46,117 bases of DNA, taken from Clostridiales bacterium (GTDB lineage Bacteria > Bacillota > Clostridia > Lachnospirales > CAG-274). Where the stretch lies: NCBI GenBank assembly GCA_021200955.1, contig JAJQFU010000057.1:1937-48053 (forward strand), written 5' to 3'. A model generated the notes under the pieces. That model did no database searches and had not been told where the DNA came from. It worked only from the letters and a program-made list of their open reading frames with translations. Shown piece by piece: positions 10,031 through 15,498 of this stretch. A program made the position numbers and the translations under genes. Positions within the stretch are counted from its first letter, which is position 1. Each line of letters begins with the position of its first letter.

Positions 10031-10837
10031 ATGATTTTAGCTATAGATATAGGAAATTCAAATATAGTTTTCGGCTTTATGGATAATGACGGAAAATCTG
10101 TTTTCAGTTCAAGAATAAAAACAGATATTTCACGAACCTCCGACCAGTACGCCATAGACCTTAAAAACATTTTGGAGCTTTACGGAGCAGACAAAAACGC
10201 CATAAAGGGCAGCATAATTTCAAGCGTTGTTCCCCCTGTTTTAAACGCAGTAAAGCACGCTGTGAAAACAGTAACGGGAATTGAACCTCTTGTTGTGGGC
10301 CCCGGTATAAAAACAGGGCTTAACATTCTTATGGACGATCCGGCTCAGGTAGGCAGCGACAGAATTGTTACGTCAGTGGCGGCTTTAAGCCTTTATAAGC
10401 CCCCGATTATTATAATCGATATGGGAACAGCCACCACAATAGAAGTTGTGGACAAAAACAAAAACTATATAGGCGGCTGTATCTGCCCCGGTGTTAAAAC
10501 GTCTCTTGATGCACTTTCGGGAAAGACGGCTCAGCTGCCCTACATCAGCCTTTCAGACCCCAAAAACCCAATAGGCAAAAACACCGTTGACTGTATGCGC
10601 AGCGGCATAATTTACGGCTCGGCGGCTATGATTGACGGGCTTATAGATTATTTTGAAGAGGAGTTAGGCTCAAAGACACAGCACGTAGCCACAGGGGGCA
10701 TATCCTCTAAAATAATACCTTACTGCAAAAACAAAATTGACGTGTGTGAAAATCTTCTTATGCAGGGACTTTTTACAATATACTATAAAAATGTTCTCAA
10801 TGAACAATCATATAGGCAAGCTTGCTTGCGTAGATGA
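10031..10837 (+). CDS. coaX: Type III pantothenate kinase
   Basis: CoaX phosphorylates pantothenate, the first committed step of coenzyme A synthesis, in the cytoplasm. The ASKHA fold is shown by DIGNSNIVFGF at the N-terminus, DPAQVGSDRIVTSVAA, DMGTATTIEVVD (about residues 130-141) and the GGCICPGVKTSLDALS block. At 268 residues it is about ten longer than typical. The expected family end is near FTIYYKN; the last dozen residues (NEQSYRQACLRR) and the stop codon are encoded inside a palindromic repeat element, so the native tail appears to have been replaced. The catalytic core is untouched and activity is likely retained. Strong RBS; no overlap with neighbours. Confidence 0.93.
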   Translation: MILAIDIGNSNIVFGFMDNDGKSVFSSRIKTDISRTSDQYAIDLKNILELYGADKNAIKGSIISSVVPPVLNAVKHAVKTVTGIEPLVVGPGIKTGLNILMDDPAQVGSDRIVTSVAALSLYKPPIIIIDMGTATTIEVVDKNKNYIGGCICPGVKTSLDALSGKTAQLPYISLSDPKNPIGKNTVDCMRSGIIYGSAAMIDGLIDYFEEELGSKTQHVATGGISSKIIPYCKNKIDVCENLLMQGLFTIYYKNVLNEQSYRQACLRR

Positions 10838-10980
10838 TTGGACATTAGAGAACTTAACCCGTATGAGCAACGTAGGGCGATAGCCCGAAGTGCGAATATC
10901 GGGTCGATTGCGGGAATGCAAAGCATGAAGCAATCGATTTTTATAGTATGTGGTATCTGCAAAGCAGAGATGTAAATTTA
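10798..10980. repeat. Multi-hairpin palindromic repeat element at the 3' end of coaX
   Basis: Several nested inverted repeats are packed here. An outer hairpin pairs CAATCAT with ATGATTG (about 10806-10840) and contains the palindrome GCAAGCTTGC. GGGC-gata-GCCC and CCCGA/TCGGG (10884-10903) follow. A clean hairpin TCGATTGC (10904-10911) / GCAATCGA (10930-10937) encloses ATGC-aaa-GCAT. TCTGC-aaa-GCAGA lies near 10956. It contains no ORF of note. It looks like a small mobile or dispersed palindromic element rather than a terminator, since no T run follows any stem. Confidence 0.65.
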
Positions 10981-15130: not shown

Positions 15131-15170
15131 TGTTGAAAATTCTTTCAACACTGCTGAAAATTCTTCAGCA
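15131..15170 (+). repeat. Tandem palindromes, candidate operator pair
   Basis: TGTTGAAAATTCTTTCAACA (15131-15150) and TGCTGAAAATTCTTCAGCA (15152-15170) are related palindromes one base apart (arms GTTGAAA/TTTCAAC and GCTGAA/TTCAGC, both around AATTC). They lie directly upstream of a -35-like TTGACT at 15174 and have no T tail, so an operator is more likely than a terminator. Confidence 0.5.
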
Positions 15171-15173
15171 CTA

Positions 15174-15207
15174 TTGACTTTTTTAAAAATATGTGTTAAT
15201 CTATAAT
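15174..15207 (+). promoter_or_regulatory. Promoter of the convergent small RNA
   Basis: TTGACT (15174-15179) has, 17 bases on, TAATCT (15197-15202) with an extended TG. A perfect TATAAT sits at 15202-15207 but is 22 bases from TTGACT. Either -10 could serve; transcription should begin about 15209-15214. Confidence 0.5.
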
Positions 15208-15209
15208 CA

Positions 15210-15303
15210 CAAAAGGGAGTGTTTCAGCGATTAACACCCCGTAAAATGACTTAGACTAAAACAGCCGCCGTTACTTTTCCAGAGGTTTAGGCGGTTGTTT
15301 TTA
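15210..15303 (+). ncRNA. Small RNA antisense to the peptide mRNA 3' end (candidate antitoxin RNA)
   Basis: A roughly 90-nt transcript is predicted between a promoter and a strong terminator. Its 5' part folds as GGG-a-GTGTT (15215-15223) / AACACCCC (15233-15240). An unpaired linker and the terminator hairpin follow. It holds only a two-codon ORF. It is complementary to the 3' end of the minus-strand peptide mRNA across about 15260-15303. Its segment 15263-15270 (AGCCGCCG) can also pair over 8 bases, one a G-U, with the leader of that mRNA at 15425-15432. This layout resembles RatA, SR4 and par RNA II, the antitoxin RNAs of known Gram-positive type I systems. The function is inferred. Confidence 0.55.
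15261..15303. terminator. Bidirectional terminator shared by both convergent RNAs
   Basis: ACAGCCGCC (15261-15269) pairs with GGCGGTTGT (15290-15298), one pair being G-U. T runs flank the stem on both strands: TTTTT follows on plus, and TTTAG follows on minus. It ends the plus-strand RNA and overlaps the last codons and stop of the minus-strand peptide. Confidence 0.8.
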
Positions 15304-15358
15304 TGAGAAAAAGTATTATAAGTACCAATGTAAGGTATAATATAGCCTTCCAACTCAT
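15287..15358 (-). CDS. 23-residue hydrophobic peptide, candidate type I toxin
   Basis: The peptide starts MSWKAILYL and ends ILFLIKTTA, with an uninterrupted hydrophobic stretch from about residue 5 to 19 between two lysines, enough for a short membrane helix. ATG is preceded by GAAAGGGGGTGAAATT, a very strong ribosome binding site. A consensus-like promoter (TTGAAA, 17 bases, TATAAT) lies about 110 bases upstream on the same strand, so the mRNA has a long structured leader. Size, hydrophobicity and convergent antisense RNA match type I toxins such as Fst, TxpA and BsrG, but I recognise no family signature; the Fst proline motif is absent. A small regulatory membrane peptide is the main alternative. 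Confidence 0.6.
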   Translation of the reverse strand: MSWKAILYLTLVLIILFLIKTTA

Positions 15359-15364
15359 AATTTC

Positions 15365-15413
15365 ACCCCCTTTCAAAATTGAATTTTGGACTTAACCTCC
15401 TTTCAACTTTGAA
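15365..15413 (-). repeat. Duplicated ribosome-binding-site segment in the peptide mRNA leader
   Basis: On plus, 15365-15383 and 15395-15413 are 19-base direct repeats with 16 matches. Read on minus they are TTCAAxxTTGAAAGGxGGT. The copy near the ATG is the ribosome binding site. The upstream copy (AAAGGAGG) has no usable start codon at proper distance and may be a ribosome standby or decoy site. Confidence 0.7.
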
Positions 15414-15469
15414 GTGTGGGGTGTAACCGCCGAATCTATGAAAATCAAACTCCCTTTTGCTTATACATC

Positions 15470-15498
15470 ATTATAATGTAATATAAATAAAATTTCAA
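15470..15498 (-). promoter_or_regulatory. Promoter of the small hydrophobic peptide mRNA
   Basis: Read on minus: TTGAAA (15498-15493), a 17-base spacer, and TATAAT (15475-15470). This is among the best sigma-A-like promoters in the window. Transcription should start near 15463. Confidence 0.75.

Follow-up and report, generated by a model that had tools for sequence, protein, structure and literature searches.

What is encoded in the short spacer on which a histidine kinase gene and mnmG converge with their 3' ends in this Clostridiales genome? The window, meaning the whole stretch of 46,117 nucleotides that was analysed, carries at this position a hydrophobic 23-codon ORF and a small RNA that appear to be transcribed towards each other, an arrangement that the preliminary description had put forward as a candidate new type I toxin-antitoxin module. 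The reading favoured here, to which a probability of about 0.77 can be attached, is that a chromosomal module resembling type I toxin-antitoxin systems lies here, with the architecture of par and TxpA and a peptide family of its own, both transcription and toxicity being predictions. The features on which this reading is built are listed below, with positions in the window and the type of evidence in brackets.

15470 to 15498, minus strand: promoter of the toxin mRNA, TTGAAA-17-TATAAT (consensus scan, 11 of 12 bases).
15359 to 15463, minus strand: leader of the toxin mRNA, about 105 nt (alignment, repeats, fold z -3.1).
15362 to 15389 and 15392 to 15419, minus strand: two 28-nt direct repeats, each with an SD (repeat search).
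15287 to 15358, minus strand: 23-codon ORF, MSWKAILYLTLVLIILFLIKTTA, a single hydrophobic helix (ORF scan, pN/pS 0.35).
15257 to 15303, both strands: shared bidirectional terminator and RNA-RNA overlap of about 47 nt (folds, conserved in copies).
15209 to 15303, plus strand: candidate antitoxin sRNA of about 95 nt with no ORF (fold z -5.3, homologous sRNAs in 60 parsed loci).
15174 to 15202, plus strand: promoter of the sRNA, TTGACT-17-TAATCT, with an extended -10 TG (sequence, promoter scores).
15215 to 15240, plus strand: 5' hairpin of the sRNA, GGGAGTGTT..AACACCCC, whose 3' arm is anti-SD-like (covariation, arm-swap tests).
15210 to 15220, plus strand, at the sRNA 5' end, with a partner at 15449 to 15459 at the mRNA 5' end: 11-bp perfect inverted repeat, CAAAAGGGAGT (repeat search).

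On the minus strand, a consensus scan places the promoter boxes TTGAAA at 15498-15493 and TATAAT at 15475-15470 with a 17-nt spacer, and the TATAAT box is kept in every aligned copy of the locus that reaches that far, except in L027. With a predicted mRNA start near 15463 and the ATG at 15358, the leader is 105 nt long, and the predicted mRNA extends from approximately 15463 to 15257 (207 nt). The leader carries, in order from its 5' end, GCAAAAGGGAGT, GGCGGTTA, a CACCCC anti-SD and the two SD-bearing repeats, the second of which provides the strong SD of the peptide ORF, GAAAGGGGGTG. The promoter, the leader of about 105 nt and the very strong RBS are all present where the preliminary description had placed them. 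The first SD (GAAAGGAGG, 15392-15419, minus strand) lies within its direct repeat 30 nt ahead of the real SD, has no ORF of its own and is kept in other copies, and is possibly a stand-by site for the ribosome or a decoy.

The predicted mRNA of the window folds at -56 kcal/mol (z -3.1), with the SD sequence GGGGUG paired with CACCCC of the leader, and with GGCGGUU of the leader paired with AACCGCC at the end of the ORF and its stop codon. The mean z over 39 loci is -3.7, and SD accessibility in silico is 0.20 as compared to 0.32 with shuffled flanks, being lower in 32 of the 39. Pairing between leader and stop codon takes the form GGCGGUUGUU:AAUAACCGCC, and GGUGGUU:AACCACC in loci that encode Hol_Tox peptides. 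Overall, this pairing is no better than swapped controls (p 0.2), and it beats the swaps in one of the five subfamilies tested (13 loci, p 0.002) and fails in the others. The motif is common to nearly all loci, so that swapping partners does not weaken the pairing and support from covariation is limited. A hok-like switch, in which trimming of the 3' end activates the mRNA, was considered and rejected, as in silico removal of the 3' end leaves SD accessibility at 0.20-0.21 and does not open the SD.

The ORF at 15358-15287 (minus strand) is, as first described, 23 residues long and almost entirely hydrophobic, with a hydropathy of 3.2 over its best 15 residues, and thereby has the short hydrophobic peptide that is a general feature of type I systems. 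When ORFs of 18-35 amino acids with a strong SD and a best 15-residue hydropathy of at least 2.5 are counted, it is the only one of its kind on either strand of the 46 kb, with 0.03 such ORFs expected per window in simulated sequence. The peptide is under purifying selection, as judged by a pooled pN/pS of 0.35 for ten intact copies, which include relatives such as MSNKDIVYLTILLIILYLIKTTA and MNNKDIIYLKILLIILYLIKTTA. The value is 0.34 without the codons that lie inside the terminator arm, and neutral simulation gave 0.94-0.96 (+/- 0.15, minimum 0.61). In other words, the DNA has drifted and the peptide has been conserved (0.35 versus a neutral 0.96), a check that the preliminary description had proposed.

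On the plus strand, the boxes TTGACT (15174-15179) and TAATCT (15197-15202) are 17 nt apart and constitute a weaker promoter than the TTGACA-17-TGnTATTAT of other copies. The GTCAA of the -35 box is invariant in ten aligned copies, and in the family as a whole the sRNA promoter is nearer to consensus than the toxin promoter, with mean scores of 10.9 versus 8.3. A plus-strand promoter and a short RNA with no real ORF had been noted previously, and both are found, but the RNA is not featureless, having a conserved hairpin at its 5' end. Folding of the 5'-terminal 40 nt of the sRNA gives this hairpin a mean z of -3.1 (z < -1 in 56 of 60 parsed loci). Cognate arms pair at -13.1 kcal/mol, as opposed to -10.0 +/- 0.3 kcal/mol for swapped arms, with none of 5000 permutations as good, and the preference for the cognate arm is seen within four of five subfamilies. 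In an alignment of 24 sRNAs, seven of the nine consensus hairpin pairs have two-sided changes, and on this pattern the hairpin is maintained by compensatory changes.

The promoter, hairpin and terminator of the predicted convergent sRNA are all conserved among copies. The terminator stem (approximately 15258-15301) is stable on both strands, at -12.9 and -19.1 kcal/mol, and the folds uphold the proposal of convergent RNAs with one shared terminator, the overlap now being about 47 nt rather than about 40 nt. Convergent genes with a common bidirectional terminator, a feature of the par and Fst-Ldr systems, are accordingly present here.

How might the two RNAs interact? The minus transcript would fold closed by placing the leader anti-SD on the SD, and could also pair its leader with the stop codon region. 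Translation of the mRNA would yield the 23-residue peptide, which would insert in the inner membrane and is presumed to be toxic in excess. The plus transcript would be an sRNA with a stable 5' hairpin that meets the mRNA tail to tail over the terminator region, a 3' overlap that follows from the convergent layout, and the 5' domain of the window sRNA may base-pair across the SD and start codon as well. Such pairing would prevent translation or make the duplex a target of RNase III, the antitoxin now providing in trans the anti-SD element that the leader has in cis.

For the window copy, the sRNA 5' domain is predicted to pair with positions -37 to +15 of the mRNA, over the SD and AUG, at -27.1 kcal/mol (z -3.5). 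Over the 60 loci, cognate sRNA-leader pairing is stronger than swapped pairing (-21.9 versus -20.3 kcal/mol, 0 of 5000 permutations). When pairing outside the terminator is compared with that of shuffled sRNAs, it is little better (mean z -0.3). Its best site includes the SD in no more than 24 of the 60 loci, and SD blocking by the sRNA is unsupported as a family-wide mechanism. Given that the SD is the site in some loci and not in others, and that on average shuffled sRNAs perform almost equally, pairing at the terminator is likely to be the general interaction, and pairing at the SD and AUG is well supported by these models in the window copy alone.

The nearest likeness among known systems is to par of the Enterococcus plasmid pAD1, where the Fst mRNA and RNAII are convergent, have a common bidirectional terminator and encode a one-helix membrane peptide, and where pairing at the terminator is combined with pairing near the initiation site and with a leader structure that hides the SD (PMC7472228, PMC8167048). 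In par, direct repeats (DRa/DRb) at the 5' ends form the sites of RNA-RNA interaction (PMC8167048). Such direct repeats give complementary RNA segments, whereas the inverted repeats of the window give 5' domains of the same sense, and a site in the initiation region comparable to DRa/DRb is predicted for the window sRNA (SD/AUG, z -3.5) but is not general in the family. In addition, the window peptide differs from Fst/Ldr: PXXXG is absent, as is the Trp that precedes the charged tail, and neither the Fst nor the Ldr profile of Pfam matches it. The layout also resembles TxpA-RatA, BsrG-SR4 and Hol_Tox (PF16935), in that the convergent RNAs overlap by their 3' ends and a strong SD precedes a short hydrophobic peptide, and the architecture suggested at the outset, that of Fst/par, TxpA-RatA and BsrG-SR4, is borne out by the convergent layout and shared terminator. 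Convergent chromosomal modules are likewise found within Clostridia, where C. difficile has CD2517.1-RCd8, CD2907.1-RCd9 and CD0956.2-RCd10 (PMC6563280). The toxins of C. difficile are 34-59 amino acids long with Lys-rich tails and many are in prophages, whereas the window peptide has 23 residues, no tail and no phage or plasmid match. According to the same review, which also describes the C. difficile modules as having longer, Lys-tailed toxins, most Clostridia are without homologues of known type I toxins, and TxpA-like or Fst-like sequences occur in two species (PMC6563280).

The statement that the peptide matches no recognised family holds for Pfam and NCBIfam, where peptide searches found no match, including to Fst, Ldr, Hol_Tox and Hok; a match to DUF6366 (E 0.21) was discarded as chance. 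For this reason the peptide is placed in a new family, and the locus would be new at the level of the peptide family and of a kind already known as a system. Rfam covariance models (BsrG, RatA and others) gave nothing above gathering score at the locus; only in L007, which carries related loci, was there a BsrG match, and its 16 bits fall short of the threshold of 55. A PF16935 search with four peptides of the window subfamily also found no match, and the genus has no Hol_Tox above cut-off. In contrast, an independent profile identified Hol_Tox PF16935 in five loci found by the model described below (G010 C44 and C49, G009 C275, G065 C521 and C154), one of these peptides scoring 7e-9, above the curated cut-off; in the control set PF16935 also matches Bacillus subtilis. 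The Hol_Tox loci that were inspected have the same design, with the leader and sRNA sharing the 5' domain GGCAGTCA..CTTCCAC. The window peptide connects this set of loci with Hol_Tox and brings clostridial peptides that have no annotation into the company of an established type I toxin family.

Copies of the locus are not confined to the window. The window genome has at least four intact copies (the window copy, L002, L003 and L004), together with L008, which is probably a fifth copy broken by a contig end, and the remnant L006, and the search of related Clostridia that had been proposed recovered six further intact copies in three congeners, at 71-78% identity. A DNA pattern for the window subfamily had five matches, all in uncultured Clostridiales/Eubacterium MAGs, with none in viral contigs, and no similar DNA was found in phage and plasmid records, leaving an origin in prophage or plasmid addiction without support. 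The mnmG flank is found without the locus in eight congeners (for G002, in 130 bases of flank only) and the kinase flank without it in G001; since neither flank carries the locus elsewhere, the copies are dispersed rather than syntenic. The congeners without the locus do have mnmG (98% identical) and the histidine kinase gene (98%), with altered flanks, such that no clean empty site can be read.

Every one of the ten intact peptide ORFs of the window subfamily has its sRNA unit intact as well. Where copies have decayed, the sRNA survives in L006, L020, L021 and L025 next to a toxin that is truncated or severed from its SD, L022 has an ORF without the sRNA but with an insertion separating the ORF from its SD, and L030 has lost both. 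A translatable toxin without the sRNA is found in no copy of the subfamily, and this asymmetry of decay, although from small numbers, is that expected if the peptide were harmful. Copies are broken by small hairpin-forming insertions at L004:1425-1510, at L006:1390-1455, and in L020 and L022, most often in the stretch from one SD to the other or from the SD to the start codon (for instance, GAAGTTTTGCC..GGCAAAAC..CGGGTT), and these are probably non-autonomous mobile repeats (MITEs) that disable the toxin.

A sequence-only model built from the ten copies was used for a census of the family. Matches occur in all nine genomes of the genus, with 2-36 each and E-values down to 1e-71, and in 36 of 48 genomes representing all 11 genera of the family. 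In a phylum sample that doubled as a negative control, and in which fewer candidates were scored per genome, 8 of 298 other genomes had a match at E<=1e-4. The weaker matches encode other hydrophobic peptides of 20-32 amino acids in the same layout, with an mRNA 5' end of GCAARAGGGA, a strong SD, a bidirectional terminator that the stop codon adjoins or lies within, and, from the opposing promoter, an RNA that starts with CACAARAGGGA. The number of loci per genome is uncertain, as weak matches were inspected in part, with about ten parsing cleanly in the window genome. These loci represent a large family of suspected toxin-antitoxin modules, numbering up to dozens in a genome, whose two RNAs begin with copies of one hairpin and which as a group has apparently not been described. 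If the function holds, a genome of this Clostridia family would have up to dozens of type I modules, more than the 13-14 on record for either C. difficile or B. subtilis (PMC6563280). Their toxins would be 20-30 residues long and go unseen by gene callers and family databases. At L007:1440-1900 (G000 contig 137), two related loci lie in tandem, encoding MSDLELILILILLIIVISKN and MSDIQLILILILLIIIISKN behind nearly identical leaders.

Is the peptide a toxin at all? A small membrane peptide that is not toxic, such as a regulator of a membrane protein, could be controlled by a convergent sRNA, and architecture and selection would agree with this no less well. The charged C-terminal tail usual in type I toxins is missing from the peptide, which counts against a toxin, and the persistence of copies at non-syntenic sites would also be in keeping with a non-toxic peptide. 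This alternative is nevertheless unlikely, as the many divergent peptides share only hydrophobicity and RNA control, which is better suited to toxins, decayed copies drop the toxin and keep the sRNA, and Hol_Tox members occupy the same design. The type I toxin-antitoxin reading proposed at the outset is supported because the peptide is conserved, the convergent locus recurs, the sRNA covaries and some related loci encode Hol_Tox.

The leader and the sRNA 5' domain are also alike in the same sense, with a local alignment score of 21.6 for cognate pairs and 16.3 (sd 0.5) for swapped pairs (z ~11), and a score of 13.3 in the antisense direction. An excess of cognate likeness is seen within each of five subfamilies (p 0.048 to <0.0002). 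On these scores, the leader of the toxin and the 5' domain of the antitoxin are copies of one another in the same sense, with more likeness within loci than between them. Either conversion between the inverted arms (concerted evolution) or selection for matched hairpins that can exchange strands would account for this. On the reading favoured here, the antitoxin would have originated when the promoter and leader of the toxin were copied in inverted orientation. It is possible, at somewhat less than even odds, that the loci form a large and unrecognised superfamily of chromosomal type I modules of Clostridia, whose antitoxin RNAs are inverted duplicates of the toxin promoter and leader, carry the same hairpin and anti-SD as the leader, and evolve in concert with it. 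If so, the leader's off-switch would be present a second time in trans, in the form of the antitoxin, and changes made in concert in the two hairpins would give rise to new cognate specificities. The shared domain would offer a testable account of how an antitoxin originates by inverted duplication, and of how many modules in one cell avoid cross-talk. A literature search, with many subscription journals outside its coverage, found no description of the peptide family or of a leader-copy antitoxin.

The same inverted repeats invite a different reading, in which the locus is a MITE with the CAAAAGGGAGT ends as terminal inverted repeats and an incidental ORF. Multiple copies, non-syntenic positions and 11-bp inverted repeats near both ends would fit such an element. 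Similarity extends beyond the inverted repeats and fades at the promoter boxes, the ORF is under purifying selection, the hairpin covaries, and the copies are 71-78% identical rather than near-identical, making a MITE improbable; the reading was dropped on the boundaries at the promoters and the selection on the ORF. That a promoter, a hydrophobic ORF and a terminator came together by chance between two genes, as the short elements and AT-rich spacer might suggest, is ruled out by recurrence of the locus (E down to 1e-71), by selection, and by the 0.03 such ORFs expected per window.

Two further observations concern the surroundings of the toxin-antitoxin-like locus. Tandem perfect palindromes, 21 nt apart (TGTTGAAA-ATTC-TTTCAACA and TGCTGAA-AATTC-TTCAGCA, 15131-15171), stop just upstream of the sRNA -35 box and were not seen in other copies; they could be an operator or the terminator of the kinase gene. 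A Clostridiales-1 RNA (RF01699, E 1e-24) is found at 10784-10945 on the plus strand, overlapping the 3' end of coaX, and looks like a dispersed element, a similar one being present 3' of the kinase gene in G001 (L189), at the position where the window genome has the toxin-antitoxin locus.
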